In this document: piece by piece, positions 1,635 to 38,991 of the stretch
Layout: every line of letters starts with the position of its first letter
Numbering within the stretch: the first letter of the stretch is position 1
Source: Brevibacterium sp. CBA3109
GTDB taxonomy: Bacteria > Actinomycetota > Actinomycetes > Actinomycetales > Brevibacteriaceae
Direction of reading: 5' to 3'
Assembly (NCBI RefSeq): GCF_040256645.1
Contig: NZ_CP158281.1
Span: 3,596,001 to 3,660,000 of the forward strand
Length of the DNA stretch: 64,000 nucleotides
Position numbers and translations under genes: made by a program
Notes under the pieces: generated by a model
Seen by the model: only the letters and a program-made list of their open reading frames with translations
What the model was told of the DNA's origin: nothing
The model's database searches: none

Positions 1635-3005
1635 TTAGGCCCCGGCGTTCACGGTGGTGACACTGCGTACGAGCGGGCGGGTGAACTGCAGCCCCAGCCA
1701 CACCATGACCACGCCTCCGACGAGCACCGATGCGACAACCCCAATGGTCAGCGGGTCGCCGAGGTCACTGGCCGAGGCCATGAGAGCGGCCAGCATTCCG
1801 CCCAGCAGCAGGGACACGAGGGTGACGAGGATGATCGGCGACATGACCGCGTTGACGGTGACCCGGTGCATCATCTTCTGTGTCATGCCCGCCGAATGCA
1901 GCTCCCGGTAGGTCGATGCCCGGTCGAGGATGTCTGCCGCCTGGTTGATCGTCGCTGAGATGACGATGAAGACGAAGGCGATGGCCAGAGTGAGGATGAG
2001 TCCGGTGAAGATGTCATCGGCCATGTACTGGTAGGGGCCCATGACGGCCTTGTCCTCGGCGGTGAGATCTCCCTGATTCGCCCGCATCATCGCCGTGCCG
2101 GCACCGCCGACGACCGCGATGAAGGTGATCATCGCCAGACCTGCCACGCGCCGCCAGTACTGTGCTGGGGCGTCGGCGATCATCGAAGCAGCGATCATCG
2201 ACGTGGGTGTGCGGGCGATCCGGTGACTGAGCCATCCGTGGATGCGCATGACGAGGACGCCGATGACATTGATGAGCAGGAGGGCGATGCCGATCGTGAT
2301 GATGCTGGCAACGACGAAGACCATCGTCGGCTGGTTGCGGTTAAGGGAGAAGACGAGTGCACCGATCATTCCGACCACGAGGACGATCACGGTGATGATG
2401 CGGGCCACGGGGAATTTCCTGGCCAAGGACCGGGTGCGCACGCCCAGTGGTGACACAGTGATCTTGCGCAGGCCGAGCAGTGCCGCGAGAAGGCAGACCA
2501 AAAGCAGTCCGATGACAACTGCGGCGAGCAGCCACAGGGGCATCATCAGCGCAGAATATCCGAGCGCTTGGCCGTTGAAGACAAGGAAGCTGAGCGGGAA
2601 GGCCAGCATGAAGTAGCCGGCGATCCCTGCAATGATCCCTGCCGAGGCGGGAACGAATGGTTCGGCGACTGCAAGGAGCCGGACAGTGCCGGGCTTCGCG
2701 CCCAGCAGGGACAGCGTGGACAGCCGTTCGTCCTGGCGGCGGGCACTCAGCTTCGCCGAGGCGACCCCCAAGCTGATCGCGGGAACGATGAGGAAGACCG
2801 TGGCCAGGATGGCAAGCATGCGATAGAGGTCGCCCACCTCGGCGTATCCGGAGACCTCGGGACGGTCGTTGAACGCCCAGGCTCCGCCGGCGACGGTGAG
2901 GAAGAGGGTCGAGCAGGCGAAGAAGGCGATGGCGACGAGCTTCGAAGTCGTGGATGTGAAGGACTGTTTGGTCAGGACTATGGGAAGGATATTCATGGTC
3001 GGCAT
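1635..3005 (-). CDS. ABC transporter permease, FtsX/MacB-like
   Basis: Membrane subunit of an ABC transporter, probably an exporter or an envelope-stress system. The 456-residue product has many hydrophobic segments: an N-terminal helix near residues 18-40, a cluster at about 60-190, and another group of four towards the C terminus, as in duplicated FtsX-like permeases. I chose the ATG whose first base overlaps the last base of the ATPase stop (TGATG), a standard translational-coupling arrangement; a GTG one codon upstream is possible. The substrate cannot be told from sequence; peptide or lipid exporters and antibiotic-resistance pairs share this architecture. Confidence 0.85.
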   Translation of the reverse strand: MPTMNILPIVLTKQSFTSTTSKLVAIAFFACSTLFLTVAGGAWAFNDRPEVSGYAEVGDLYRMLAILATVFLIVPAISLGVASAKLSARRQDERLSTLSLLGAKPGTVRLLAVAEPFVPASAGIIAGIAGYFMLAFPLSFLVFNGQALGYSALMMPLWLLAAVVIGLLLVCLLAALLGLRKITVSPLGVRTRSLARKFPVARIITVIVLVVGMIGALVFSLNRNQPTMVFVVASIITIGIALLLINVIGVLVMRIHGWLSHRIARTPTSMIAASMIADAPAQYWRRVAGLAMITFIAVVGGAGTAMMRANQGDLTAEDKAVMGPYQYMADDIFTGLILTLAIAFVFIVISATINQAADILDRASTYRELHSAGMTQKMMHRVTVNAVMSPIILVTLVSLLLGGMLAALMASASDLGDPLTIGVVASVLVGGVVMVWLGLQFTRPLVRSVTTVNAGA

Positions 3006-3751
3006 CACCGGTTGTTCTCAACGTACTGGTGGTTCTGCACAGGCTGGTTCGCAGAATCGGAGACGATTCGGCCGTCGGCGAGGCGGACGATGCGAGAGCA
3101 CCGGGCGGCCACTGACTCATCGTGGGTGACCACGACCAAGGTGGATCCGCGGCCGGTCGTCGAGGCGAGAAGTTCGGAGAGCACCTCGGTGGAGGTGGAG
3201 GAGTCAAGGGCACCGGTGGGTTCGTCGGCGAAGGTGACCACGGGCTGGGTGACCTGAGCGCGGGCGATGGCCACGCGCTGTGCCTGACCGCCGGAGAGCT
3301 GTCCGATGCGTTTGTTCAGGTGTTCGGCCAGTCCCAGGCGCTGCAGCCATGCGCGGGCATGCTCGGTCGCATCGGAGCGTTTCATCCCCGAGAGCATGGC
3401 GGCGAGCGCAACATTGTCCAAGGCGGTGAGCTCGGGCAGGAGCAGGCCCTGTTGGAACACGAAGCCGAAGACCTCGCGGCGCAGTGCGGTGCGGCCCTTC
3501 TCCTTCAGCGAGGTGATCTCTGCGGCGGCGCTGCGGTCGGTGGGCAGGAGGCGAATGTTGCCCTCGTCTGGTCGGATGATGCCTGCCAGGCAGTGCAGGA
3601 GGGTCGTCTTGCCGGAACCGGAGGGTCCCATAATGGCCAGGGATTCGCCGAGGCCGATGCCCAGATCGACTCCGGCGAGTGCGTAGGTCTGGTTGTAGTG
3701 CTTGGTCACGTTCGAGGCGGCGATGATCGCGGGAAGCTGTGTGTTTGTCAT
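3005..3751 (-). CDS. ABC transporter ATP-binding protein
   Basis: Nucleotide-binding subunit that powers the adjacent permease. The 248-residue product shows Walker A GPSGSGKTT, signature LSGGQAQR, Walker B TFADEPTGALD and the switch His in VVTHD, the pattern of the LolD/MacB/FtsE-type branch. The start was set at MTNTQLP because GGAG lies just upstream; an 11-codon upstream extension lacks an SD. The stop overlaps the permease start by one base, so the two form an operon. Confidence 0.9.
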   Translation of the reverse strand: MTNTQLPAIIAASNVTKHYNQTYALAGVDLGIGLGESLAIMGPSGSGKTTLLHCLAGIIRPDEGNIRLLPTDRSAAAEITSLKEKGRTALRREVFGFVFQQGLLLPELTALDNVALAAMLSGMKRSDATEHARAWLQRLGLAEHLNKRIGQLSGGQAQRVAIARAQVTQPVVTFADEPTGALDSSTSTEVLSELLASTTGRGSTLVVVTHDESVAARCSRIVRLADGRIVSDSANQPVQNHQYVENNR

Positions 3752-4033
3752 GTCTCCATGTTTTCGCAAACGGACTTGTGCCACTATGAAGACGACCCAC
3801 CACCTCGGCGAGGAAAACCCGACTCTTGGAATAGGGGTTACAGATCCGGCGAATCACCTGGTGATTGGCTTGGGATCAGACTTGCCGATAGACCAATCGG
3901 CGATCAGCCGCCTATTGTGAATGCGTAGCGGTTGCCCGACGGTTCCGCTGCACTTGAGCCACTCTGCGTGAACCACTCTGGGTGAACTCACGACGAGGAC
4001 CAACCAAGACACGTCTACAACGGAGGAGTCATC

Positions 4034-4447
4034 ATGAAGGCACAGTGGATCAGCATTCTCGTCGACGACCAGGCTCGGGCCCTGAAGTTCTACACGGACA
4101 GGCTCGGCTTCATTCCGAAGGTCGATGTGCCGGTCGGAGACGACTTCCGCTGGCTCACCGTGGTCTCACCCGAGGCTCCAGACGGAGTCGAGATCGTCCT
4201 GGAGCCGAAGGGCCACCCCGCCGCGAACGACTTCACCTCTGCGCTGAAGGCCGACGGAATCCCTCTCAACCAGTTCGCCGTTGAGGATGTCCAGGCCGAA
4301 TATGATCGCCTGTCAAAGCTCGGTGTCACGTTCACGCAGGAGCCGACGACGATGGGACCAGTCACCACCGCCGTCCTCGACGACACAGTGGGCAACCTCA
4401 TTCAGCTCATTCATCAGGAAGAGGACACCGAGCCCGACCTGCCTTGA
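4034..4447 (+). CDS. VOC (glyoxalase/bleomycin-resistance) family protein
   Basis: A 137-residue protein of the vicinal-oxygen-chelate fold. It begins MKAQWISILVDDQARALKFY, the usual first beta-alpha unit, followed by GFIPKVDVPVGDDFRWLTV; a second module ends AVLDDTVGNLIQLIHQ. GGAGG precedes the ATG by about 8 nt. Family members range from glyoxalases and dioxygenases to antibiotic-binding proteins, and the sequence does not settle which. It stands alone, divergent from the ABC pair and convergent with the DUF445 gene. Confidence 0.85.
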   Translation: MKAQWISILVDDQARALKFYTDRLGFIPKVDVPVGDDFRWLTVVSPEAPDGVEIVLEPKGHPAANDFTSALKADGIPLNQFAVEDVQAEYDRLSKLGVTFTQEPTTMGPVTTAVLDDTVGNLIQLIHQEEDTEPDLP

Positions 4448-4483
4448 GGCTGAGTCGGCTGCGTCACGGCGGGTCTGCTCACC

Positions 4484-4500
4484 GAGCAGCGATGCTGCTC
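4484..4500. terminator. Short hairpin between convergent genes
   Basis: GAGCAGC-GAT-GCTGCTC is a perfect 7-bp inverted repeat with a 3-nt loop in the gap between the VOC and DUF445 stops. No T-run follows, so a terminator role is only suggested by position. Confidence 0.35.
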
Positions 4501-4522
4501 ATTCTGGCGGCTCTACCGCGCA

Positions 4523-5821
4523 TCACCCAGGCAGCAGCACGATGATCGTGTGGATGACGAGACCGACGAGGGCGCCGATGACTGTGCCGTTGATGCGGAT
4601 GTACTGCAGATCCCGGCCGACGTAGAGCTCGATCCTCTCGGCGGCTTCCTTCGCATCCCATCGTTCGATCGTGTCGGAGATGACGCTGGCGATCTCGGGG
4701 CCGAAGCTCTCTGCCAGGTCACCGGCCGTCGTGGCGATCCGGTCATCGATCTTGGCGGAGAATTCCGAATCTTCCTGCAGCCTGCCGGCGAATTCTCCGA
4801 TGAGTTCGGAGATGCGTCCGCGCACCTCGCCGTTGGGGTCGATGATGGCCTGGCGCAGGAGCTGCTTGAGCGAAGTCCAGATCTCAAGCACGGAGTCGAC
4901 GACCCCGGATTGGCTGAGCAGATCGTTGATGATGACCTCGGCCTTCTCCGACAGTGGAGTGTCAGAGTTCAGGTCGTCGGAGAGGTCGACGAGCCAGGCG
5001 TCGAGGGCCTGTCGTGCCTTGTGGTATTCGTTGTCGCGGACGTCGGCGACCCAGCCGAGCACCTCTCGCTGCAGTCGGTTGGAGAGCTGCTCGTTGACGA
5101 AGTCGGGAACCCAGGACGGGGCCCGGTTGTGGACGATCCCATCGATGACCTGCGGGTTGTCACCCAACCAGGAGTACGCCTCGGCGACGATGAGGTCGAC
5201 AAGCTTGTGGTGCGCCCCGTCGAGGACGATCTGACGCAGCAGCTGCGCCAGCACCGGAGTCTTACGGGTCGCGACCAGGCGCGGAATGATGACATTCTTC
5301 GTCAGGGCCACGACGGAATCGTCGTCGATGCGGGCCAGCACATATTCGAGCCCACCGGCGGCACGGTCGACGACGAGGTCCCGGTTGGCAGACTTGCTCA
5401 GCCACTCACCGGCACGGTGGGAGACCTGAGCGGACCGGATCTTCGTCGACACCGCCTCGGCGTGGAGGAAGTTCGCGGCGACGAACGCGGACAGGCTCGC
5501 GCCCAGGGTGTCCTTCTTGCGGGGAATGATCGCGGTGTGCGGAATCGGCAGCCCGAGTGGATGGCGGAAGAGTGCCGTGACAGCGAACCAGTCGGCGATC
5601 GCACCGATCATCGCAGCCTCCGAGGCACGGGAGACGAAGCCCCAAACCCCGGTGTTGTCGGTGAAGATGTGGGTCGAGAGGAAGATAAGGGTGGCGAGGA
5701 CGAGCAGCGACAGCGCCAGCGTCCGCATCTTGCGCAGACCCCGCGCCCGCTCCTGGTCCTCCGGCGTCAGTTCGCTCGGACCGCCGAAACGCGGCACGGA
5801 TGGTGCTTTTTCGATCGACAT
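4523..5821 (-). CDS. DUF445 family membrane protein
   Basis: A 432-residue protein related to YjiN/DUF445 proteins. A charged N terminus is followed by a hydrophobic segment (TLALSLLVLATLIFLSTHIF), the GFVSRASEAAMIGAIADWFA region, and FRHPLGLPIPHTAIIPRKKD, which is a hallmark of the family. The C terminus ends in a second hydrophobic stretch. The start MSIEKAP was chosen because GGGGGAACG sits directly upstream; an ATG eight codons earlier has no SD. The family function is unknown, with an envelope role usually assumed. Confidence 0.87.
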   Translation of the reverse strand: MSIEKAPSVPRFGGPSELTPEDQERARGLRKMRTLALSLLVLATLIFLSTHIFTDNTGVWGFVSRASEAAMIGAIADWFAVTALFRHPLGLPIPHTAIIPRKKDTLGASLSAFVAANFLHAEAVSTKIRSAQVSHRAGEWLSKSANRDLVVDRAAGGLEYVLARIDDDSVVALTKNVIIPRLVATRKTPVLAQLLRQIVLDGAHHKLVDLIVAEAYSWLGDNPQVIDGIVHNRAPSWVPDFVNEQLSNRLQREVLGWVADVRDNEYHKARQALDAWLVDLSDDLNSDTPLSEKAEVIINDLLSQSGVVDSVLEIWTSLKQLLRQAIIDPNGEVRGRISELIGEFAGRLQEDSEFSAKIDDRIATTAGDLAESFGPEIASVISDTIERWDAKEAAERIELYVGRDLQYIRINGTVIGALVGLVIHTIIVLLPG

Positions 5822-5994
5822 CGTTCCCCCTTCTTCGCCTGCCATCGACTTTAGCGAAGTAGCGGCCCGTCATGGGCATCGGCAGGCTGTGCCGAGCCTG
5901 GGAACCTGCGTCGTGGAGTCTGCGCCCTGTCGCCGATTGCCGCATCGTGCTTGGATGGGAAGAGGCACCATTCGACGACTTCCGGGAGGATGAC

Positions 5995-13490: not shown

Positions 13491-15980
13491 TCAGTCTTTA
13501 TTCCCTTTGCCACCATCGCCTTTGTCTTTACCGCCGCCAGTGTCGCCACTGCCACTAGTGTCTCCGCTACCGCCAGTGTCGCCACTGCCGCTAGTGTCTC
13601 CGCTACCGCCAGTGTCGACACCGCCACCGGTATCGCCACCGCCGCCAGTGTCTCCTTTGTCTCCACCCTTCGGCCCACCATCGGGGTCCTTAGACGAGCC
13701 GCCATCTTCGCGACCGTCCTTGGAATCCTTGGAATCCCTGGAATCCTTGGAATCCTTGGAATCCTTGGCGCTGTCCTTCGAGTCGCCCTTGGCATCCTTC
13801 GACCCGTCGGCGTCCTTCTCCTTGTCCTTATCCTTGCCTTTGTCCTCGTCGTCCTTCGGCTTCTCGCTCGGAGTGTCGATCGGAGCCTTGGTCTTTGTGT
13901 CCCCGCCGTCGCCGCCATTGTCGCTGCCGTTCTCGCTGGGCGCCTTCGGCTGAGGTGGTGGCGCAGGAGCGTTGGTGTTCTTAGGCTTCGGTTTATCGGG
14001 CAGTTCTCCGCGCTCAGGGAACTGCACGACTTTTTCGCCTTCAAGAGCATCCTTCATGTATTCCGTCCATACCTGGATCGGGAAGGATCCACCGGTGACC
14101 TGGCCGCGTCCACCGTAGGCACCGATCGAAACAGATTTGCCATCAACCTCACGGTAGAGGACCACCGAGGTCGCCAGTTGCGGAGTGTAGCCAGAGAACC
14201 ATGCAGCCTTGTTGTTGGTGGTCGTACCCGTCTTACCGGCGGCTGGACGACCCAAATTCTGGGCGTAGCTGCCCGAACCACCATTGACGACCTGGCTGAG
14301 AGCATAGGATGTCTCAGCTGCAACCGCTTTGTCGAAGACGCGCTTGCCCTTCGTCTCCGACTTGTAAATCTCCTTGTCGTCCTCACCCTGCTTGACCGTC
14401 TTGATCGCATGAGCGTCATGTTTGACGCCGTTGGACGCGAAGGTCGAGTAGGCATTCGCCATGTCGATGACCTTGACGCTGGCCGTACCCAGCACGTTGC
14501 CGGGGTTCGGATCAAGACCAATCGTGCAGTTGCGGGTGTCGCCCTCTTTTAACTGCTCGGGAGTGCAGTTCCCGCTCAAGCCGGCTCTCTGCGCAACATC
14601 CACCGTCTTTTCAGGTCCGACCTGAACATTGAGCGCCTGGTACGCCGTGTTAATCGACGACTGAGTTGCCTTGAGCAGCGTCACCGGACCATAGCTGGCG
14701 TTGGCGAAGTTGTGGACAGTGAAGGGATCGTAGTTAGGGTAGTTGAACGTCGTGGTGCTGCCCGGATATCTATCGGTCAAACGCACACCATTTTCCAAGC
14801 CAGCCACCAGTGCGAAGGGTTTGAAGGTCGAGCCGGCCTGGGCATGTCCCTGGGTCGAGACGTTGAACGCCTGGTCAAGATAGTTCTTGCCACCATAGAA
14901 GGCCTCGATCCCGCCGGACTTCGGATCGATCGAGACCAAGCCTGCCTGCAGGCCCTCGGGCTGATCAGGCGGCAGATTCTTGACGGCCTTCTCGGCTTCC
15001 TTCATCCGGTCTTTGTCGAATGTGGTGGTGATGTTGTAGCCACCGCGGTCCAGCTGAGCTTCATCGATGTCGAGTTTCCGCAGGGCCTCACGACGAACGT
15101 ATTCCCACATGTAGCCTGTCTGGCCCTTGAGAGATTCTTCCTTGCTCGCCTTCTTCACTTCGGGCATCTTGACCTTAGCGGCCTGCTCTTCGGTGATGAA
15201 GCCTTCGTCGGTCATCGACTTCACAACGTAGTCGAACCGGGCTTGATAGGCCTCAGGACTATCTGCCGGATCGGCTGCTCCAGGACGCTGGATCATCGCT
15301 GCCAGGAGTGCGGACTCACTGACGTCGAGGTCCTTCGCCGGCTTGTCGAAGTAGTTCTGACTGGCGACCTCAATGCCGTAAGACCGGCGACCCAGGTAGA
15401 TCGTGTTCAGGTAGTTGGCAAGGATCTCGTCCTTGCTCTGCTGCTGGTCGATCTTGAGCGAGATGAACATTTCCTTGACCTTGCGATCCAGAGAGTGCTC
15501 ATTGGTGAGGTAGAAGTTCTTCACATACTGCTGGGTGATCGTCGAACCGCCGCCGGCATACTTGTTAGTGGCTACACCGACGACTGCACGGGAGAGTCCC
15601 TTGATGGAGATTCCGCGGTTCTCGTAGAACGAGGTGTCCTCGGCAGCTATGGCTGCCTCCTGCATCGGCTCGGAGATCTCATCGATCGGCACCGACTTGC
15701 GATCTTGGACCTTGTACTGGCCGATGGGTGTCTTGCCGTCGTTGTAGTAGATGGTCGATGTCTGACCCGTGGCCTCGATGTTGGGCTCAGGGACGTCAGT
15801 GACGGCATAGCCGATGGAGAACAACACGCACAGGGCGATGATGATGCTGAGTCCGCCCACGACGAGCAACCGGACGCTCGGCAGAAAACGCGTCCATCCG
15901 CTCACACCTGTGCGCGGATAGTTGAGAATGTTCTTTGTCTTCTTGCCTCTGGTTTTGGCTTGTTCTTGTCCCTTAGCCAC
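13491..15980 (-). CDS. ponA: Bifunctional class A penicillin-binding protein (PBP1)
   Basis: Polymerises and crosslinks peptidoglycan at the outer membrane face. The 829-residue product has a basic cytoplasmic N terminus, one membrane anchor (LLVVGGLSIIIALCVLFSIG), a GT51 glycosyltransferase domain with EDTSFYENRGISIKG, and a transpeptidase domain with GSTFK (Ser near 384), SSIN and KTGTTTNN near residue 583. The last 130 or so residues are a low-complexity Pro, then Lys/Asp/Ser, then Gly/Asp/Thr tail encoded by DNA repeats. The GTG start has GGAGG about 8 nt upstream. Confidence 0.95.
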   Translation of the reverse strand: MAKGQEQAKTRGKKTKNILNYPRTGVSGWTRFLPSVRLLVVGGLSIIIALCVLFSIGYAVTDVPEPNIEATGQTSTIYYNDGKTPIGQYKVQDRKSVPIDEISEPMQEAAIAAEDTSFYENRGISIKGLSRAVVGVATNKYAGGGSTITQQYVKNFYLTNEHSLDRKVKEMFISLKIDQQQSKDEILANYLNTIYLGRRSYGIEVASQNYFDKPAKDLDVSESALLAAMIQRPGAADPADSPEAYQARFDYVVKSMTDEGFITEEQAAKVKMPEVKKASKEESLKGQTGYMWEYVRREALRKLDIDEAQLDRGGYNITTTFDKDRMKEAEKAVKNLPPDQPEGLQAGLVSIDPKSGGIEAFYGGKNYLDQAFNVSTQGHAQAGSTFKPFALVAGLENGVRLTDRYPGSTTTFNYPNYDPFTVHNFANASYGPVTLLKATQSSINTAYQALNVQVGPEKTVDVAQRAGLSGNCTPEQLKEGDTRNCTIGLDPNPGNVLGTASVKVIDMANAYSTFASNGVKHDAHAIKTVKQGEDDKEIYKSETKGKRVFDKAVAAETSYALSQVVNGGSGSYAQNLGRPAAGKTGTTTNNKAAWFSGYTPQLATSVVLYREVDGKSVSIGAYGGRGQVTGGSFPIQVWTEYMKDALEGEKVVQFPERGELPDKPKPKNTNAPAPPPQPKAPSENGSDNGGDGGDTKTKAPIDTPSEKPKDDEDKGKDKDKEKDADGSKDAKGDSKDSAKDSKDSKDSRDSKDSKDGREDGGSSKDPDGGPKGGDKGDTGGGGDTGGGVDTGGSGDTSGSGDTGGSGDTSGSGDTGGGKDKGDGGKGNKD
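13536..13607 (-). repeat. 36-bp tandem repeat in the ponA tail
   Basis: Two adjacent 36-bp units (13536-13571 and 13572-13607) differ by a single base, and a partial third copy follows. Each encodes 12 residues of the Gly/Asp/Thr/Ser tail, so copy-number change would stay in frame. Confidence 0.85.
13717..13768 (-). repeat. 9-bp tandem repeat in the ponA tail
   Basis: About 5.8 copies of TCCTTGGAA (one copy has TCCCTGGAA). On the coding strand this gives the SKD tripeptide run. It is an in-frame microsatellite, liable to expand or contract by slippage. Confidence 0.85.
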
Positions 15981-16326
15981 CCAAGGTCCTCCAGGTCAGT
16001 TTGCCTGCCGCATTGCGTGGCGACGAGGTTCGATAAGGTCACACTTGAGCTTCAGTGTGGCACGCATTCTTTGGAACACAGTGAAAATACCTTGAATCCA
16101 GCGCCCACTGATCCCGCTTGTTACCTATCGGCACATATGAGTAGTGTCATATATCCGCTCTCACCAGGGATTTTACCGACGGTCCTGGTTTTCATCCACA
16201 TCCAGTGCGGAATTGCTCACATTTAGCTACTTTTTCAACTATCAGCCGCCTGTCGGCCCGCCGTGGGGACTCTCGTATGCAGTATCCGACGGAGGAAAGG
16301 GCAGCCCAGCCCGATTCACTCTGGCT
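15981..16326 (-). promoter_or_regulatory. ponA upstream region with a 20-bp dyad
   Basis: This stretch holds no gene I can support. The ponA SD (GGAGG) is at its edge. An imperfect dyad, CACACTTGAGCTTCAGTGTG, lies at 16040-16059, about 60 bp upstream of the ponA start, and could be an operator or an RNA hairpin. No clear -10/-35 pair stands out. Confidence 0.35.
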
Positions 16327-26950: not shown

Positions 26951-27027
26951 ATGCGTACGATAGGCAATCTGTGCCGCCATGGAGCGGGACACGAAGAACT
27001 CAGCGAGCAGGAACAGGGAATTTTCAC

Positions 27028-28023
27028 ATGACTGATACACAACTGGTGATCATCGGGTCGGGGCCGGCCGGATACACTGCTGCCGTTTACGCGGCTCGTG
27101 CGAACCTTTCGCCCGTGGTCATTGCAGGTTCTGTGACAGCAGGTGGTGAACTCATGAACACCACCGACGTTGAGAATTACCCCGGATTCCCCGCCGGCGT
27201 GCAGGGTCCAGAACTCATGGAGAGCATGCGCGAGCAGGCTGAGAAGTTCGGCGCCGAGGTGATCTACGACGACGTCGAGACCCTCAAGCTGGAGCCCGGC
27301 GCACATCAGATTGAAACAGCACTGGGCGCGAAGTACACGGCTCAGGCAGTCATCCTCGCCACAGGATCGGCATACCGCGAACTCAACCTGCCCAATGAGA
27401 AAAGACTGTCTGGCCATGGTGTCAGCTGGTGTGCCACCTGCGACGGGTTCTTCTTCCGAAACCAGCACATCGCCGTCGTCGGCGGGGGCGACTCTGCCCT
27501 CGAAGAAGCGACGTTCCTCACCCGTTTCGCCTCGAAGGTGACTCTCATTCACCGTCGTCAGGACCTTCGGGCTTCGCAGGCCATGCAGGATCGGGCAGCA
27601 GCCGATGAAAAGCTCGAATACCTCCTTGACAGCGAGGTCGCCGAAATTCAGGGCGAGGATTCGCTGACCGGGCTCACTGTTCGCAACACCGTGACAGGTG
27701 AGACGTCCCAGTTGCCGGTCACTGGCTTGTTCGTGGCCATCGGTTCGGATCCGCGCACCAGTCTCTTCGGCGACCAGCTCTCGCTGCGCGCCGACGGATA
27801 TCTCAATGTCGAAGGGCGGACCTCCAAGACCGCAGTCGAGGGCGTCTTCGCTGCCGGCGACGTCATCGATTCTGTCTACAGGCAGGCCATCACGGCTGCA
27901 GGATCAGGCTGCTCCGCAGCCCTCGACGCTGAGCACTACCTTGGAGATCTGGAGGCTGTGACAAAGCAGGCCGAGGCCGTCGCGGCTCACGCTTCCAAGG
28001 CCACAGCACCGATCGGCTCCTGA
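27028..28023 (+). CDS. trxB: Thioredoxin reductase
   Basis: NADPH-dependent flavoenzyme that reduces thioredoxin. The 331-residue protein shows the FAD motif IIGSGPAGYTAAVYAAR, the redox pair WCATC (C135, C138), the NADPH motif VVGGGDSALEEA, and the FAD-closing GVFAAGDVID. The ATG at 27028 has AGGGA 8 nt upstream; the 19-codon upstream extension has no SD. trxA follows after 140 bp, with its own promoter. Confidence 0.97.
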   Translation: MTDTQLVIIGSGPAGYTAAVYAARANLSPVVIAGSVTAGGELMNTTDVENYPGFPAGVQGPELMESMREQAEKFGAEVIYDDVETLKLEPGAHQIETALGAKYTAQAVILATGSAYRELNLPNEKRLSGHGVSWCATCDGFFFRNQHIAVVGGGDSALEEATFLTRFASKVTLIHRRQDLRASQAMQDRAAADEKLEYLLDSEVAEIQGEDSLTGLTVRNTVTGETSQLPVTGLFVAIGSDPRTSLFGDQLSLRADGYLNVEGRTSKTAVEGVFAAGDVIDSVYRQAITAAGSGCSAALDAEHYLGDLEAVTKQAEAVAAHASKATAPIGS

Positions 28024-28163: not shown

Positions 28164-28481
28164 ATGTCGACAGAAGTCACTGATGCCACGTTCGAAGAAA
28201 CCGTTTTGAAATCCGACAAGCCAGTACTCGTCGATTTCTGGGCACCATGGTGCGGCCCTTGCCGCATGGTCAGCCCGATCGTGGACCAGATCGCGGAAGA
28301 GAATACCGAGAAGCTCACCGTCGTCAAGGTCAACACTGACGAGAACCTCGAGACAGCGAGCAAGTATGGAATCACCTCGATTCCTGCGCTCTACGTCTTC
28401 AAGGATGGTGAGGTAGCCAAGACCATCATCGGTGCACGGCCCAAACCGGCGCTTGAGGATGAGCTCTCCGACTTCATCTGA
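28164..28481 (+). CDS. trxA: Thioredoxin
   Basis: Cytoplasmic disulfide reductase of 105 residues. It has the canonical VLVDFWAPWCGPCRM active site (C30, C33), the cis-Pro in GITSIPALYVF, and the FKDGEVAKTIIGARPK end. The start MSTEVTD is preceded by AGAAAGG with 6-nt spacing. A hairpin directly follows the stop. Confidence 0.97.
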   Translation: MSTEVTDATFEETVLKSDKPVLVDFWAPWCGPCRMVSPIVDQIAEENTEKLTVVKVNTDENLETASKYGITSIPALYVFKDGEVAKTIIGARPKPALEDELSDFI

Positions 28482-28489
28482 TCATGTTC

Positions 28490-28523
28490 TAAGGCGCCTG
28501 TTGTACGATCAACAGGCGCCTTA
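28490..28523 (+). terminator. Hairpin after trxA
   Basis: A perfect 14-bp inverted repeat (28490-28503 with 28510-28523) with loop TACGAT, starting 9 nt after the trxA stop. No strong T-run follows. It separates trxA from the cwlM-like gene. Confidence 0.8.
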
Positions 28524-28578
28524 GGTCTATCCAGATGGCAGACAGGAACACGTTCAGAACCTCGCACAGCAGATTGGC

Positions 28579-29721
28579 ATGGCATTGACTCACAACCCAC
28601 ACCCGCAGTTTTCCCGCGGGGACAGCTCTGAGGTGTTGCCCAACATCAAATCTCAGATGGCTCGCCTGGGACTCAATGTCGGTCAGGCCGAATCTGTCGA
28701 ATTCGACCGGGCCTTCGAACTCGCAGTTCGACAATTCCAACAGGTGCGAGGGATCCTCTGCGACGGCGTGATGGGCACAGAGACCTTTTCGGAGCTCGAA
28801 CGGGCCCGATATCAACTAGGAGACAGGGTCCTCCGCTATGACCCCGTCAGAGTCCTTACAGGCGATGATGTACTCAGGCTGCAGCGAACCCTCGCCGGCC
28901 TCGGGTTCTACGCGGGCCGCATGGACGCCGAGTACTCGGCAGTCACAGATGCAGCAGTCAAGGAGCTGCAGATGGGTCTCGGGACCAAAGCCGACGGTAT
29001 AGCCGGACCGCAGACGCTGCGTGGACTCGACGCAATCGATCGCAAACAGGACACCGGCAATCTCTTTGCTCTTGAAGAGCGAGCTCGCGTTGCGGCATCC
29101 GGAACATCACTAGCGGGCCGCACATTTGTCATCGAGGCAGCAACTACAGTTGTAGATTTCGAGACTCTGCCGATGACACCCGCCCAATCTGAGACCGAAC
29201 GACGCATCACTACTGATATTGCAAGTCGACTTGCCGGACGGCTGGAAGCTGTCGGTGCCGGGGCTATAGTTCTGACAGGGGACGCCGTCGAAGTCAACAA
29301 GGCTGACCAGCTGGGCGCTTCTGCGGTCATTACCGTCACTGCCGACATCAACAAGGCCAAAGACGCAAACGGGATCGCGACCTTCTTCTTCGGCCACGAG
29401 ACTCATTCCGATATCAATTCGCCGACCGGTGCACGTCTGGCCGAACTCATCCAAAGTGAGCTCACGGCGCGAACAGGGATGAGAGATTGCAGAAGTCACG
29501 CACGGACCTGGTCTTCTTTGAAGCGTCTCCGTACCCCGAAGGTGCATGTAGTAGCCGGCTATCTGACCAATACCGATGACCTCGATAATCTCGAAGACGC
29601 TAACGTACGAGATGCGATTGCTGATGGAATAGCCGCTGGCCTGCAGAGACTGTACGTTCGCGAAGACTCAGACCCCGAAACCGGCACACTCAGTCTCGCT
29701 GAGATCAAGGCGTACAGCTAA
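28579..29721 (+). CDS. cwlM: CwlM-like protein: two peptidoglycan-binding domains plus a degenerate amidase domain
   Basis: A 380-residue protein in the conserved trxB-trxA-cwlM-(parB) position. Residues 13-77 and 93-152 are PG_binding_1-like repeats (VRQFQQVRGILCDGVMGTET; VKELQMGLGTKADGIAGPQT). Residues 180-362 align in layout with Amidase_3, but the zinc-binding positions look lost: the expected GHGG region reads VIEAATTV (184-191), the second His site reads ITVTADIN (251-258), and the final Glu region reads VVAGYLTN (324-331). There is no signal peptide. In mycobacteria CwlM is a cytoplasmic, PknB-phosphorylated activator of MurA rather than a hydrolase, and this sequence fits a regulatory role. 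Confidence 0.85.
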   Translation: MALTHNPHPQFSRGDSSEVLPNIKSQMARLGLNVGQAESVEFDRAFELAVRQFQQVRGILCDGVMGTETFSELERARYQLGDRVLRYDPVRVLTGDDVLRLQRTLAGLGFYAGRMDAEYSAVTDAAVKELQMGLGTKADGIAGPQTLRGLDAIDRKQDTGNLFALEERARVAASGTSLAGRTFVIEAATTVVDFETLPMTPAQSETERRITTDIASRLAGRLEAVGAGAIVLTGDAVEVNKADQLGASAVITVTADINKAKDANGIATFFFGHETHSDINSPTGARLAELIQSELTARTGMRDCRSHARTWSSLKRLRTPKVHVVAGYLTNTDDLDNLEDANVRDAIADGIAAGLQRLYVREDSDPETGTLSLAEIKAYS

Positions 29722-29736
29722 AGGCACAGCACCATA

Positions 29737-29752
29737 TGTTTTACGTGAAACG
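29737..29752. other. parS-like site 1
   Basis: TGTTTTACGTGAAACG: two mismatches to the 16-bp parS consensus TGTTTCACGTGAAACA. It lies 15 bp after the cwlM-like stop. Confidence 0.65.
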
Positions 29753-30247
29753 CGTGCGTGGCTACGACCTTCACGGCGTACCGTCGCCGCAATCCAGAAG
29801 CCAGATTCAGCAGTAGTCAGCACGCTGAAGTCCAAACGACCTGCTCGCCTGATCAACCACCACCCCCTGACTTCTGCCAACACCATATCTCTGTGACGCC
29901 TCCGCCCATGCAGTGCGGTGCAATGCAGCCTGTGCTCATATGCATGGGTCTGAATGCCGTGCGAAGTTCCAAGGGAACTCGGTGCTCCACCATTGTGCGA
30001 GCCTTTGCGCCGATGCAGACGGTCCGGCGCAGATGAGCTAGCCCGGGTTCAGGTACTAAACCTCCAAAGGCGTACTTTTGCAACAGCAATGTATAGGCGC
30101 GGATCTGTAGCGCCTGCACCTTCTAATGACCACCTACACACGCGACCCCACAAAGCTGCGCCCTGGTGCATACAAGAACTCAATGCCGTCGACGACACTG
30201 CGGCATAAGATCATGCCAGTTCCGAGTCTTGGTCGTGCGGCAGTATA

Positions 30248-30263
30248 TGTTTCACGTGAAACA
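30248..30263. other. parS site 2 (perfect)
   Basis: TGTTTCACGTGAAACA, an exact match to the conserved bacterial parS sequence. Confidence 0.96.
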
Positions 30264-30483
30264 GGCGGAATGCAATCCAAATTGTAAGTCGATCGGCGTT
30301 AAGAGACCCGAGCACACCCGATGCACATCGGATGGAAACACCGGACGGACCGTGGACAACCCATCCGACGAAGCCATAGAGCCAACAAGCCAGGCCCTCA
30401 GAGGGATCCGCTCCCCCCGGCAACCCGAAGCATGCAGATCAACCACGATTTCCAGTGCAGCAAGCAGACGCCCGGCGATCTCA

Positions 30484-30499
30484 AGTGACACGTGAAACC
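30484..30499. other. parS-like site 3 (half-degenerate)
   Basis: AGTGACACGTGAAACC: the right half-site is intact apart from its last base, and the left half is degenerate (four mismatches in total). It may be a weak or decayed site; it keeps the array spacing. Confidence 0.4.
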
Positions 30500-30686
30500 G
30501 GCGGGCGTATGGCGAGTCGGGGAAGCTGAATTGAAGAGCTGAACGACCAGCTCTTAACCCGAGGCGAAGCCGACCTATCACATTGCGTCCACATCGGACG
30601 GAGTGTGCGCCCCGGACCGGAGAACACCTGGTAGCTGCATAGGTGGGCGTTGCAGCAGTGTTTCAAGCACCTGATGATCTGCGAAC

Positions 30687-30702
30687 AGTTTCACGTGAAA
30701 CA
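30687..30702. other. parS site 4
   Basis: AGTTTCACGTGAAACA: one mismatch, at an outer position; the 14-bp core is perfect. Confidence 0.93.
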
Positions 30703-30926
30703 TCGAGCCGACCGTGCCGAAGCAGCAGACTTCGGAGTCACACCGTGATTCGGGGGCGTCGCATATTAGGGAGAGCCTCACAGCAAAACGTAACGCACCG
30801 GCTACGGGCTCGGTATCAGGATTGAGCTACCCAATCCATAGCCGCTGGACCCTCGAACCCATCAAACCACCCGACTCGCACGTTCAAGATCCTCTAGCTC
30901 GTTCACTATTCACAGATTATAGGTCG

Positions 30927-30942
30927 CGTTTCACGTGGAACA
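30927..30942. other. parS-like site 5
   Basis: CGTTTCACGTGGAACA: two mismatches, one outer and one (A to G) in the right half-site. Confidence 0.75.
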
Positions 30943-31124
30943 ACCGACGGGCATTTGCAGTAGGACGGATCAACAGCCCCCGACGTTCCTGATCCTTCAA
31001 GCGCTCGGCCGATTCCAACTAGCCTCACATAGCCCAATCACACTGGTCCCCGAAAGGTCCCAAATGCGCTAACACGTAAAGACATTACAGTAGCCGCGGG
31101 GAGTACCAGAGCGGTGCTTGCTCA

Positions 31125-31140
31125 TGTTTCACGTGAAACG
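31125..31140. other. parS site 6
   Basis: TGTTTCACGTGAAACG: one mismatch at the last position; perfect 14-bp core. Confidence 0.94.
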
Positions 31141-31252
31141 CCGATATATGTGCGCGGTTATGACCGAGGAGAGGTAGCAAATCGGCGGGGCGCGAAGCAT
31201 AGAGCCGAACTAATGGGATTTCAACCAACTCAGACTGGCTGCGATAAAGGCA

Positions 31253-31771
31253 CTACGGTGATTGGACCTCGCCTTCACCAGCCAGCGACAGGCCCGGGAG
31301 TTGCTGCGCGACGATTCGGTAGTAGCCGGGAGGTAGCGCGAGTGCTGTGGAGGGAGCAATACCCGACAATGTGACGCCGCCAACTTCACGACGGCTTTTC
31401 CGTCGGTCGCGCACCTTCGCGTCCCCCAAAAGTACCATTGAAGACGCAACGTACGGACCCACTTGGGTGCAGAACTGCCACAGCCCAGTGTCGATACACA
31501 CGCCTGGTGACAGAGAACATTCTGACCTGAGCATTCCTGGATCAAGAATTGGACGTTTCACGTGAAACGATCGGCGAGACAAGTCCCGATCGTCGTGATC
31601 TAGAAATTCGATAGGAGCTGTAAATGGTTCATCAACCTGCACTTGTACCTCTTCCCATGCGTCGGTAGTCGTGCCGTTTAGCCAATTGCATCTGATGTGA
31701 CCAATTGAAGTCGTGGGTCTCCAGCGATCGAGGACGCTTCGAACCCAGACCGAAACGACAGCGAAAGCCAT
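31253..31771 (-). CDS. Uncertain ORF inside the parS region
   Basis: A 172-codon open frame and the only long one in this zone that reads at all protein-like (VQVQVDEPFTAPIEFLDHDD; ALPPGYYRIVAQQLPG near the end). Third-position GC is clearly lower than in the surrounding genes, no SD was identified, and parS site 7 lies inside it. It may be a laterally acquired or decaying gene, or chance. No family is recognised. Confidence 0.28.
   Translation of the reverse strand: MAFAVVSVWVRSVLDRWRPTTSIGHIRCNWLNGTTTDAWEEVQVQVDEPFTAPIEFLDHDDRDLSRRSFHVKRPILDPGMLRSECSLSPGVCIDTGLWQFCTQVGPYVASSMVLLGDAKVRDRRKSRREVGGVTLSGIAPSTALALPPGYYRIVAQQLPGLSLAGEGEVQSP
31554..31569. other. parS site 7
   Basis: CGTTTCACGTGAAACG: a perfect palindrome with the intact 14-bp core; only the two outer bases differ from consensus. 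Confidence 0.9.
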
Positions 31772-31819
31772 CGCTATTAGTGTGCTTGCGCAATTCGACT
31801 ATGAGAATAGAATGCTCTA

Positions 31820-31835
31820 TGTTTCACGTGAAACC
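31820..31835. other. parS site 8
   Basis: TGTTTCACGTGAAACC: one mismatch at the last position; perfect core. Confidence 0.93.
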
Positions 31836-32069
31836 CCGCGTTACCGATTGGCATGGTGCCCACCACAGCGATGAGACGGCCACGGAAGGTGACACCGGCC
31901 CATACAATTGAGCCTGTACTCGATCGACAACATGAAGAATTTCCGGCATATTCAGACGGCGCCTGCTAAGACAACCTAGGTGCAGACCGGTGGACACAGT
32001 CGACATCTAGCCGTCGCAAGATCGACTGACTGCGTACGGAGCCGGCGACGGCCACTCCCAGGGGAGGAC

Positions 32070-32085
32070 CGCTTCACGTGAAACG
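32070..32085. other. parS-like site 9
   Basis: CGCTTCACGTGAAACG: three mismatches, one of them inside the 14-bp core (T to C at position 3). Confidence 0.75.
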
Positions 32086-32288
32086 GTATACTTCATTCAC
32101 GGTGCCGGATAAAGCCGTTTGGTGCAAAAAGAGTGAAGTCCCTCGCTGAGCAATCAGGGTTTCAGCTATTCGCCAAGGAAACACACGCGATGTTTGTTCC
32201 CGTACCAGCGAGACGCGCACCGACAAACAATCCATGAGGGCCCCAGTCCGCAGACAAGCGCCACCACCGGTAAGGGTGTATGGTCAAA

Positions 32289-32304
32289 CGTTTCACGTGA
32301 AACG
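32289..32304. other. parS site 10
   Basis: CGTTTCACGTGAAACG: identical to site 7, perfect palindrome with the intact core. Confidence 0.9.
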
Positions 32305-32500
32305 ACTAAAGCAAATCGGCAGCATCTATGAGTTGTAGCCTACGTTAACGGGCCAGAGACCGCTGAGTACGATCGAGCGCGACCGCAGACTCGCAGCGGT
32401 AGGGAGATACTTTTCCTAGCAATGGTGCGGCTTTCCCGAACGAGGCAACACACGGCACCCAGGTCCTCAACAGTCTCACCACTTCACCGAGCAGCGAAGA

Positions 32501-32548
32501 AGGTAGGGCGGGTGAGAGAGACTATCGTCCTTCTAACCCGCCCTACCT
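32501..32548 (-). terminator. Terminator hairpin after parB
   Basis: A 13-bp perfect stem (32501-32513 with 32536-32548) and a 22-nt loop, 18 nt downstream of the parB stop. It probably ends the yidC-parB side transcripts before the parS region. Confidence 0.75.
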
Positions 32549-32566
32549 CCAGCGACGAGGAACCAA

Positions 32567-34420
32567 CTACTCAGTCGGTGTCTCCACACCAAGCAAACTC
32601 AGTATTCGATCGAGATCGTTCTGATTAGCGAACTCCACACTCAATTTTCCCTTTTTCTTGCCCACCGTAATGTTGACCTTCGTGTCCAAACGATCTCCAA
32701 GACGTTCCGCAACCTCGACAAACTGAGGTGCGACGCGGGTAGTTGCACGTGAAACATTCATAGAGTCGCCACGGTTCAGCAGCACCACGGCTTCTTCGGA
32801 CGCTCGTACGGAAAGCCCCTCAGCGACAATGCGCTGAGCAAGAACTTCCATGTGCTCCGGTTCCCGCAGGCCCAAGATCGCTCGAGCGTGTCCCGCTGAA
32901 ATGACTCCAGCCGCAACACGCCGCTGAACCAGCGGTGGCAGACGAAGCAACCGAAGAGTATTGGAAATCTGCGGGCGAGAACGTCCAATCCGTTCGGAGA
33001 GTTCTTCCTGCGTACAGCCGAAGTCTTCGAGCAGCTGACCATAGGCAGCGGCCTCCTCCAGCGGGTTCAGTTCTGCACGGTGCAAGTTCTCAAGAAGCGC
33101 ATCCCGCAACAGATCTGTGTCATCAACGTAGCGAATGATTGCAGGAATGGTCGACAGGCCCGCATCCTTCGTAGCCCGCAGACGACGTTCACCCATGATG
33201 AGTTCGAAGCGTTCAGAGTCGCTGGGCTTCTGTCGGACCACGACTGGCTGGAGCACACCGATCTCGCGAATGCTGTGGACAAGTTCGCTGAGCTGGTCTT
33301 CATCGAAGAATGTCCGCGGCTGACGAGGATTGGCATCGATGCGATCGACGTCGATCTCACCGAATTCCGTATCCGGGATCGAATCAACACCCGCACGATC
33401 GGTATCTTCTCGCGATGGCGAATGGTCATCCTCCGCACCCGCAGCTGGCACCGATGAAGTCGTTGGAGACTTCGACATGCTGTCTACTTCATATGTAGTA
33501 TTCGCTGTCTGAGCCGCTTCTAAGCTCTGCGCCTCGTCGAAGACCTCATGCCCCGACCTGTAGACCCCAGGATGCGTCTCCGAAACATCGTCGTCATATA
33601 TCGACGCTTCGTCCCTTCCACCTTCAGTCGGCTCACCGAAATTGGCTTCTACGTCAGGCTCGGCAGTTTCAACGACACGCGATTCCAACACGTCGGTGTT
33701 GTTGAGCTCCGGATCCGGTGTGACGTCCACTGCAGCAGAGGACGACGCCGAATCCGACTCTGGCGCGGTCGTTCCCTGTGCGGACGCAGCTGTCGGTCTC
33801 GAGCTCACTGCCGCGTCGCTCGTCGGCCTGGTGGACGACCGTCGAGTCGGCGTCTTCGTCCCTGGCGTCTTCGGGCTGGCTGATGCCCCGGGCGTCGACT
33901 TACTGCCGGGCGATTTCTTCGCGTCTGTCGTCGCCCCGCTCGTCTTCGCCTTGGATACAGTCTTAGCTGACGGATCTGCGGCCGGGGTGGAATCAGCCGC
34001 TCTCGCCCCCGCTGATTTGGCCCCTGCAGCGGCCTTCTTCGACGCGGCTTGAGAAGCGCCGGATTTGGATGAGGTTGCCGCCGCTGCCTTCTTCGTGGAA
34101 CCAGTCTTCGCGGTCGCACTTTCCACAGCCGCACTCTTCGACGAAGACAGCTCTGAAGCGCCAGCACCCTTCTTGGAGGCCTTATCTGTCGATGATTCTG
34201 ATGCAGAACCATCCTTAGGCTTACGCCGACGCGAGGACTGCATCGAGGCTGCAGGATCCGTGCGAGCGGCCCGAGGAGCCTTCGGCTCCTCTGTGCTGTG
34301 GTCGGCCTCTTCAGCTTCGCCACCGGAGAAGAACACGTCGACTGGACGATCGCTCGACGCCGCATCCGGAATCAAAGCACCTAGCCCACGACCCAATCCA
34401 CGCTTTCTGCGTTCAGCCAC
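32567..34420 (-). CDS. parB: Chromosome partitioning protein ParB with a very long linker
   Basis: CTP-dependent clamp that loads at parS and spreads. The 617-residue protein has the ParA-contacting motif [13 protein letters not shown] at residues 5-17, then about 336 residues (18-353) of low-complexity Ala/Ser/Lys/Thr, then acidic, sequence. The conserved core starts near 354 ([15 protein letters not shown]), with GERR at 410-413 in the CTP-binding domain, an HTH ([20 protein letters not shown]) and a C-terminal dimerisation domain. ParB proteins are typically about 280-400 residues, so the linker is exceptional. Its start overlaps the parA end by 8 nt. A parS-like site lies within the gene. 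Confidence 0.96.
32741..32756. other. parS-like site 11, inside parB
   Basis: AGTTGCACGTGAAACA: two mismatches to consensus, one in the left half-site. It is embedded in the parB coding sequence, continuing the array spacing (452 bp from site 10). Confidence 0.65.
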
Positions 34421-35339
34421 GATTTACTCCTCGTTGTGCGATTTCTTCGGCTGCTTCCCGATAGGACAAAGCGCCACTGGAATGGGGATCATACGAAATG
34501 ACAGTCTGGCCGTAGCTTGGAGCCTCTGAAATGCGCACGGAGCGCGGAATCGAGGAAGACAGGACCTGTTCGGGGAAATGGGTGCGAACATCATCGGCTA
34601 CCTGTGCGCTGAGATTTGTTCGGCCGTCGTACATCGTCAGCAAGATGGTGGAGATCGCCAGTTTGGGATTCAGATGCTTCTGGATCAGCTGAATATTCTT
34701 GAGCAGCTGGCTCAATCCCTCAAGAGCATAGTATTCACACTGAATCGGGATCAAGACTTCCCGGGCGGCAACGAACGCATTGACTGTCAGGAGGCCGAGG
34801 CTCGGAGGGCAGTCCACGATAACGTAGTCGACTCGATTCCCCGCTGCAGCTTCTTCATCGAGATAGAGACTCAGAGATCTCTGCAGGCGCTGTTCTCGCG
34901 CGACAAGCGACACCAGCTCGATTTCTGCACCAGCCAAGTCGATCGTCGCAGGCACACATGTGAGGGTCTCGAAGTCGGGGCATTGGGCGACCGCTTCACG
35001 CATGGGCACGTCATCGATGATCACATCGTAGATACTGGTCACTTCGGAGTAATGGTCAATGCCCAGAGCGGTGCTCGCATTGCCCTGTGGGTCGATGTCG
35101 ATCAGCAGAACGTTGAGGTTCTGATTCGCCAGCGCGGCAGCGATATTCACAGCAGTGGTGGTTTTCCCAACGCCGCCCTTCTGGTTGGCGATCGTGAAGA
35201 TCCGGGTAGAGTCCGGTTGTGGAAAACTCGCCTGGGACAGTCGATCGGCGCGACGATTGTCGCGCGCGATTGCAGCACCTATCGGAGACGACTCGTCCAT
35301 GATCGGCATTCGGCGCACTCCATCATCCATTGGTTTCAC
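34413..35339 (-). CDS. parA: Chromosome partitioning ATPase ParA
   Basis: Walker-type ATPase that binds nucleoid DNA and moves ParB-parS complexes. The 308-residue product contains [19 protein letters not shown] (deviant Walker A), [10 protein letters not shown] (A'), and [13 protein letters not shown] (Walker B). The N-terminal start is unclear: the frame opens at GTG 35339, with ATG codons at positions 4, 11 and 14 and no strong SD for any. It sits between rsmG and parB, the standard order. Confidence 0.95.
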
Positions 35340-38576: not shown

Positions 38577-38991
38577 TTCAAGTCTCCGATTTCTAGGTTG
38601 CGGTCGAACGGCTTTGCGTTCTCACAAAAAACGGCGGTGAGAATCTCGACCGCCGAGCACTCCTGTGCATAAGAGCCAAAAGATATTCAAGATAATCGGA
38701 TGAAGCCCGGTACACAGGACACTCCATCTTAGCCAAGGTCAAAGTTGCTGGTCAAACTCGATGGCGATGTTTCACGTCACTGTCGCGAACTGTTCGCCGA
38801 AATTCATCCCCCGCACATCTGCGGTCGTCCACAAGTAACAAGGGTGTAGTTTTCCACATGGTTATCCACCAGTGTGGAGGATTGCTGGGATGACTCGTCA
38901 GTTCTCCACAAACTGTGGAAAACTATGTGGAAGTCATACACAGGTGTGGACCGCACCAAAGAGAAGCGACGAAAACGGAGGAAGATTGACG
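38577..38991. promoter_or_regulatory. rpmH-dnaA intergenic region with DnaA-box cluster
   Basis: About 415 bp that hold the divergent promoters. DnaA-box-like 9-mers crowd the dnaA side: TCGTCCACA (38825-38833), TTTTCCACA (38850-38858), TTATCCACC (38862-38870), TTCTCCACA (38902-38910) and, in reverse, TGTGGAAAA (38914-38922). None is a perfect TTATCCACA. They may autoregulate dnaA or form an upstream origin subregion. The far side is featureless apart from a parS-like half-site. Confidence 0.8.
38768..38783. other. parS half-site near dnaA
   Basis: TGTTTCACGTCACTGT: the left half of parS is perfect but the right half is lost. It may be a decayed site or chance. Confidence 0.3.

Follow-up and report, generated by a model that had tools for sequence, protein, structure and literature searches.

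The window analyzed here, a 64-kb stretch of the Brevibacterium sp. CBA3109 chromosome, contains a dense array of parS sites of the ParABS segregation system. Ten of the eleven sites lie in a 2,845-bp non-coding block (29722–32566) between the stop codons of parB and a convergent peptidoglycan amidase gene. The sites are exclusive to this array in the genome, recur in the genus and are evenly spaced, and around them lies a zone of fast substitution centred on parS. We propose that the block is the centromere of the chromosome and that the raised substitution probably reflects a higher mutation rate caused by the ParB–parS complex.

A parS array exclusive to the origin region

Searching the window for the 14-bp parS core with up to three mismatches returned 11 matches, all between 29738 and 32755 (six perfect, four with one mismatch and one with two), whereas 100 shuffles of the window averaged 1.89 matches and never exceeded seven. 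The initial annotation had reported eleven sites within 3 kb and none of parS quality elsewhere in the 64 kb, and both statements were borne out. The perfect cores are parS 2 (30249–30262, also a full 16-bp palindrome), parS 4 (30688–30701), parS 6 (31126–31139), parS 7 (31555–31568), parS 8 (31821–31834) and parS 10 (32290–32303). One mismatch is found in parS 1 (29738–29751), parS 5 (30928–30941), parS 9 (32071–32084) and parS 11 (32742–32755), and two in parS 3 (30485–30498). Because parS 11 is within the 3′ part of the parB coding sequence, the description of a dedicated non-coding block fits ten of the eleven sites but not the last.

In the one-contig genome of 3,669,452 bp, a search with up to two mismatches found 14 places, the 11 of the array and three strays with two mismatches each, which do not exceed the four places found with a reversed control pattern. 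With at most one mismatch there were ten sites, all inside the array, and none for the control. Consensus parS palindromes are thus confined to the origin region, as marked by the position of dnaA, ParB bears N-terminal ParB_N, helix-turn-helix and dimerisation domains, and a ParA-type Walker ATPase gene adjoins parB; all three are features of chromosomal ParABS systems. With at least ten parS within a few kb, the array also belongs with the dense chromosomal clusters of the Myxococcus xanthus kind.

The array is shared with other Brevibacterium and is not peculiar to this genome. Among 27 Brevibacterium loci, 26 include the amidase gene, and all of these have a block of 2.3–4.1 kb with 8–13 sites at no more than one mismatch; over these 26 loci, each of 18–21 kb, every such site is in the block or the adjoining end of parB. 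The position of parS 11 in parB holds a site with at most two mismatches in 27 of 27 loci, and by the listed positions a parB-embedded site 160–200 bp from the parB stop is present in 12 of the 16 genomes whose amidase is less than 60% identical. We also assembled a broader collection of 55 sequences (54 genomes plus one duplicate assembly, L041), which overlaps largely with the 27 loci. Block length was measurable in 52 genomes, counting the present one; there is none for G024 and G076, in which the amidase gene is missing, and G015, G017 and G031, whose contigs are too short for the array region, are in no count. The block exceeded 1.5 kb in 43 of the 52 genomes, and 40 of these 43 carry at least seven sites with no more than two mismatches; three long-block genomes (G016, G062 and G070) have three to five sites at no more than one mismatch. 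Nine deep-branching species have a block of 25–840 bp, with parS mostly inside parB and in the parB–parA and parA–rsmG gaps. The block may therefore have grown within the genus Brevibacterium. Genome-wide exclusivity and recurrence in related species together support the suggestion of a dense, dedicated array beside parB; neither equally good sites elsewhere nor a lack of conservation in relatives was found.

Even spacing without a fixed period

Gaps between neighbouring sites in the window are 198–266 bp, with three larger ones of 429, 452 and 511 bp. Their coefficient of variation (CV) was 0.37 compared with 0.83 for random placement (p = 0.001), and the best period was 229 bp (p = 0.007, from 2,000 random sets searched across an identical range of periods). 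The spacing test was applied to 40 genomes, three of the 43 long-block genomes being dropped for having fewer than seven sites, and 32 of the 40 were more even than random at p<0.05, a count in which the genomes share ancestry. The initial annotation had described a regular lattice of about 230 bp whose spacing might matter for loading and sliding of ParB clamps or for condensin loading, and had called for alignment of positions and spacing in related genomes. The array and its evenness recur in the relatives, also in clades whose site positions differ, but the arrangements themselves vary by clade (the gaps in L028, for example, are 357, 300, 123, 156, 373, 331, 302, 210, 373 and 210 bp), and 10 of the 40 genomes have neighbouring sites less than 60 bp apart. 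The evenness is therefore real, but a strict lattice is not supported. On these sequence patterns, the clade-to-clade differences and the close neighbours favour even coverage with no set period over a fixed one. That a fixed spacing of about 230 bp is itself required for clamp sliding or condensin loading appears quite unlikely, since even coverage without a period accounts equally well for these patterns. The array of G071 (L037) is less even than random (CV 1.26); one of its gaps measures 1,431 bp, and three sites spaced by 26 bp look as if they were recently duplicated. We rejected the idea that a unit of about 230 bp had been duplicated in tandem to form the array; the repeats found were parS-centred, bar one weak two-copy match.

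The block is the most divergent DNA in two genome-scale comparisons

We compared this genome with the same-species genome G065 over 239 kb of alignment (pair 1; the 4-kb dnaA–dnaN stretch is 98% identical) and G012 with G019 over 180 kb (pair 2). In pair 1 the block is exactly equal in length yet only about 75% identical, while hundred-base windows of the flanks are 87–100% identical, bar one in parB at 81%. The divergence of the block was 24.7% over 2,791 bp, compared with 4.3% for other intergenic DNA (109 stretches), 5.7% for its convergent subset (24 stretches) and a median of 5.9% at fourfold degenerate sites (185 genes), and the block ranked first of 450 two-kb windows. In pair 2 it diverged by 33%, compared with 8.5% for other intergenic DNA (78 stretches), 9.4% for the convergent subset (17 stretches) and 10.0% at fourfold sites (140 genes), and it was first of 336 windows. 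In both pairs, with and without the most divergent stretches, the block was 3.6–5.8 times faster than other convergent intergenic DNA. Its divergence exceeds the yardsticks for unconstrained DNA, which are other intergenic DNA and fourfold sites and may themselves carry some constraint. Beyond one locus (L015), 0–3% of this genome's block aligned by blastn to the other 25 loci. The parS cores diverged by 5–14%, compared with 30–51% for bases 9–15 bp from the centre of a site (7 pairs).

Two other tracts of the window, 1635–5846 and 13491–15981, had fourfold divergences from G065 of 0.27–0.41 and 0.34, respectively, compared with a median of 0.06. These tracts were probably imported by recombination.

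Fast substitution extends into the flanking genes and follows parS

Fourfold rates in the flanking genes were expressed as median ratios to far genes in 11 pairs with disjoint genomes. In successive 300-bp steps outward from the block, the amidase gene had ratios of 3.7, 3.0, 2.9 and 1.3 and parB had ratios of 3.2, 3.6 and 2.0; over six bins of about 300 bp in the 11 pairs, 61 of 66 ratios exceeded 1. Genes further out were close to the baseline (trxA and parA 1.1, rsmG 1.0, dnaA and dnaN 0.9). The approximate hot zone spans 28822–33496, comprising the block and, to either side of it, about 900 bp of coding DNA, with median fourfold rates 2.0–3.7 times those of genes further out. Pooled by distance to the nearest parS, fourfold divergence was 0.331, 0.309, 0.312 and 0.265 in 300-bp steps to 1.2 kb, then 0.176 to 1.6 kb, 0.145 to 2 kb, 0.151 to 3 kb, 0.120 to 5 kb and 0.120 beyond. 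The zone of raised substitution is centred on parS and reaches about 1–1.5 kb. Amino-acid change was less consistent, with near sites above far sites in 12 of 16 pairs, equal in two and below in two. Two positional causes were rejected: ordinary genes had no rate trend toward the 3′ end, and dnaA and dnaN, presumably close to the origin, were at the baseline.

To compare near sites (less than 900 bp from parS) with far sites (more than 2 kb), we applied a Fisher test to each pair. The genomes covered were all Actinomycetota, and genes came from a simple open reading frame (ORF) screen in the genome-scale comparisons and in the two genera outside Brevibacterium. Near exceeded far in all 27 pairs from three actinobacterial groups, with p<0.05 in 26. 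Brevibacterium contributed 16 of 16 pairs. Within this genus, parA and rsmG had ratios of about 1.0 in the 11 pairs in which parS is restricted to the block and the adjoining end of parB, whereas the medians were 1.8 for parA and 2.4 for rsmG in the five deep-branching pairs in which parS also flanks both genes (Mann-Whitney, p = 0.003 and p = 0.0005, respectively). For jag, which is further out, the corresponding ratios were 1.1 and 1.4 (p = 0.18).

The parS sites of Nocardioides lie at and within the genes immediately upstream of parB, which from their order would be parA and rsmG. There, near exceeded far in six of six disjoint pairs, five at p<0.05, with stray sites close to a locus end omitted in two loci. 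For the third genus, that of G054, 49 genomes were searched, 20 were fetched and five disjoint close pairs were used, and all five gave near above far; 11 of the 20 genomes have 10–18 parS in the fetched stretch of 13–20 kb. The genera of G040 and G048, searched as further tests, yielded two and four genomes, which were not used. In G120/G126 a parS-rich block of about 3.5 kb had a divergence of 0.49–0.57 with flanks mostly at 0.06–0.21; in our judgement, such a block aligns no better than unrelated DNA. Also outside Brevibacterium, the actinobacterial loci of G100 (L259) and G101 (L261) hold 15 parS in about 4.6 kb (at about 13.5–18.2 kb), several of them about 390 bp apart, and this stretch contains only one short called ORF.

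Mutation, recombination or relaxed constraint

The corrected transition/transversion ratio at fourfold sites was 1.34 near parS and 1.28 far from it (5 pairs). The mutation spectrum near parS is therefore like that of the rest of the genome, as it is in the fast centromeres of yeast. NucS is present in the genome, but local loss of its mismatch repair was rejected as a cause, since the excess of transitions that it would be expected to leave was not seen. A tree of the two flanking genes had a length of 6.87 compared with 2.4–3.7 for four other gene sets (36 genomes).

A recombination hotspot, in which homologous DNA from other lineages time and again displaces the DNA around parS and makes it look old, would also give high divergence. 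The flanking-gene tree conflicted with those of the other four sets in 1–6 of 21–27 well-supported splits, while the other sets conflicted with one another in 1–5. It conflicted most with yidC plus trxB (6 of 25 splits), which does point toward recombination, as do the import-like tracts at 1635–5846 and 13491–15981 in the same genomes, and in pair 1 the fourfold values of the flanking genes (0.22 and 0.20) are near that of the spacer (0.25). The spacers of 43 genomes match only their own clade, bar matches of 40–50 bits, and many have no match; in two clades the most similar spacer sometimes belongs to a genome other than the nearest relative (G007/G032 and G006/G012). The divergence, however, is centred on parS in each tested clade and moves with parS, and the pair 1 block has 1.15 indels per 100 bp, compared with 1.01 in other convergent DNA and 3.69 in import-like stretches. 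The matching spectrum, the lack of a clear excess of tree conflict and the clade-confined spacers thus favour raised mutation over imported DNA. Because spacers are discordant within clades and the pairs are not strain-level, recombination keeps part of the probability, but we regard it as unlikely.

Several observations weigh against a raised mutation rate, for which the support is wholly comparative. The p values are uncorrected and treat sites as independent. Other windows were also very divergent, at up to 0.20 in pair 1 and 0.29 in pair 2, with the block at 0.26 and 0.35. In pair 1 the corrected transition/transversion ratio was 1.34 in the block and 1.55 in other low-divergence intergenic DNA, and substitutions per indel numbered 21.6 in the block, 5.7 in other convergent DNA and 10.9 in all low-divergence intergenic DNA. 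In pair 2 the latter ratio varied with the aligner; because of this dependence at higher divergence, and because the result depends on the comparison set, we dropped substitutions per indel as a general argument. The length of the flanking-gene tree also counts amino-acid change. Among the genes, trxB is mildly fast (1.3 times, 10 of 11 pairs) despite its distance of 1.7 kb, while the intervening trxA is not fast, and murJ is 1.4 times the far genes, being above them in five of the seven pairs that hold it. In G012/G019, parB is below the far genes (0.075 compared with 0.112), the sole such case of 24 pairs, and in G008/G032 it is barely above them. The effect is weak in G100/G101 (only 0.152 compared with 0.112) and in L055/L092 (p = 0.07), and a G100 parS at 11182, away from the array, has little effect. 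Finally, G+C content at fourfold sites is lower near parS (0.617 compared with 0.779) in 36 of 36 genomes, so weaker codon preference is mixed into the rate signal.

The lower G+C content is what would be expected if mutation were not raised at all and synonymous and non-coding sites near parS were just less constrained. This explanation is very improbable, because genes of low fourfold G+C are slower rather than faster: their medians were 0.017 (13 genes) and 0.007 (9 genes) compared with 0.059 overall in pair 1, and 0.063 (8 genes) and 0.027 (3 genes) compared with 0.100 overall in pair 2. Codon bias was not supported as a cause. Such a G+C preference would cut the rate by only about a fifth, by our own estimate rather than by computation. 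Moreover, the block exceeds other convergent intergenic DNA by the factor given above, and fourfold sites are at least as fast as other intergenic DNA.

A cause that is mutational but is not ParB itself could coincide with parS; candidates are SMC loading, convergent transcription, fork pausing or missing transcription-coupled repair. In other bacteria SMC is known to be loaded at parS, and the block does sit between convergent genes, with promoter-like and terminator-like matches only at chance level. The 3′ 300 bp of other convergent genes, however, is not fast: 0.084 in pair 1 (47 ends) and 0.127 in pair 2 (33 ends), compared with 27 of 111 and 21 of 113 sites, respectively, at the block. 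In addition, the rates of dnaA and dnaN, genes that presumably lie nearer the origin, match the baseline, and parS inside or beside other genes also gives fast zones. We therefore think a cause of this class rather unlikely as a whole, although SMC loading and ParB would not be separable in comparisons of this kind, and the same applies to replication through the complex.

Locus layout

The gene order is murJ, trxB, trxA, amidase, the array, parB, parA, rsmG, jag, yidC, dnaA and dnaN. The genes trxB, trxA, amidase, parB, parA, rsmG and dnaA were assigned by Pfam; murJ, jag, yidC and dnaN are names we take to apply from the translations. On the minus strand, parB (32567–34420) encodes 617 residues with ParB_N, HTH_ParB and ParB_C domains and parA (34413–35339) encodes 308 residues with an AAA_31 domain. 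The C-terminal 307 residues of ParB are 97% identical to those of B. antiquum CNRZ 918, the nearest named relative found. The amidase gene (28579–29721, plus strand, start codon putative) has PG_binding_1 and Amidase_3 domains and is convergent with parB. The trxB gene is at 26971–28023, 1.7 kb from the array, and dnaA is at 38872, about 4.5 kb beyond parB.

The G+C content of the block is 0.56, compared with 0.61 for the window. Coding or RNA content of the block was rejected: no Rfam family reached its gathering score in 28400–34500, the block stayed one uncovered stretch over its full length in a screen of ORFs of at least 90 codons for codon-like substitution, and the promoter-like and terminator-like matches in it did not exceed chance counts. 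An inverted repeat just 3′ of the parB stop (32501–32548; 22-nt arms, 86% complementary, 4-nt loop) is not among the sites scored as terminator-like; it could possibly end the parB transcript before the array.

Discussion

ParB is known to load at parS as a cytidine triphosphate-dependent clamp and then to slide (PMC10387095). In the mechanism that we propose, ParB clamps would load on the origin-proximal array for ParA-driven segregation and presumably for SMC loading too. The loaded clamps and bridges would either block the access of repair enzymes or interfere with replication of the DNA in the complex, and base substitutions of all types would accumulate around parS. Selection would keep only the sites and their roughly even coverage, so that the sites persist while the intervening DNA is rewritten. 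Of the two routes, poor access of repair enzymes seems favoured over disturbed replication, because the spectrum is unchanged and lacks a transition excess of the NucS type. There is about an even chance that ParB–parS complexes act as local mutators, about 1 kb around parS clusters mutating some 2–3 times faster, and more in dense arrays.

If this is true, bacterial centromeres would share the eukaryotic paradox of a conserved function on the fastest-changing DNA, and divergence could be read as a fossil footprint of ParB occupancy, giving the reach of ParB from sequence. The fast evolution of centromeres is a long-standing puzzle in eukaryotes, for which drive, recombination or raised mutation has been invoked. 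A bacterial centromere has no meiosis and hence no meiotic drive; should mutation prove to be raised there too, the cause may apply in general to DNA held in segregation complexes. In addition, because the rates of parA, parB and rsmG seem to depend on where parS is located, caution is advisable in using these as clock genes. Among the literature matches listed, covering titles and the starts of abstracts with subscription journals mostly outside, no paper reported raised mutation or substitution near parS.

Among known systems, the parS cluster of M. xanthus is described as 22 sites in 3 kb (PMC3899335) or as 24 sites (PMC3778016). It resembles the Brevibacterium array in being dense, about 3 kb long and close to both parAB and the origin. 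The M. xanthus cluster, however, is about 4 kb upstream of parA, whereas the Brevibacterium array, with about half the site density, lies between convergent genes immediately 3′ of parB; the passages on M. xanthus contain no analysis of spacing or evolutionary rate. The parS sites of Streptomyces and Corynebacterium are grouped near oriC but spread, both within genes and intergenically, across tens to hundreds of kb. They are thus close to the origin like those of Brevibacterium but do not form a 3-kb non-coding block.

In evolutionary rate, the parallel with the point centromeres of Saccharomyces appears close. Their evolution is about 3–4 times faster than that of unconstrained DNA, and their mutation spectrum is ordinary (Bensasson 2011, PMC3155921). 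In both cases the rate exceeds that of unconstrained DNA and the spectrum is ordinary; recombination is not favoured as the cause in yeast, and in Brevibacterium it seems the less likely one. Unlike the yeast centromere, the Brevibacterium block involves ParB and parS and no nucleosomes, its fast zone includes about 1 kb of flanking coding sequence, and the comparisons are between genomes rather than of population data.

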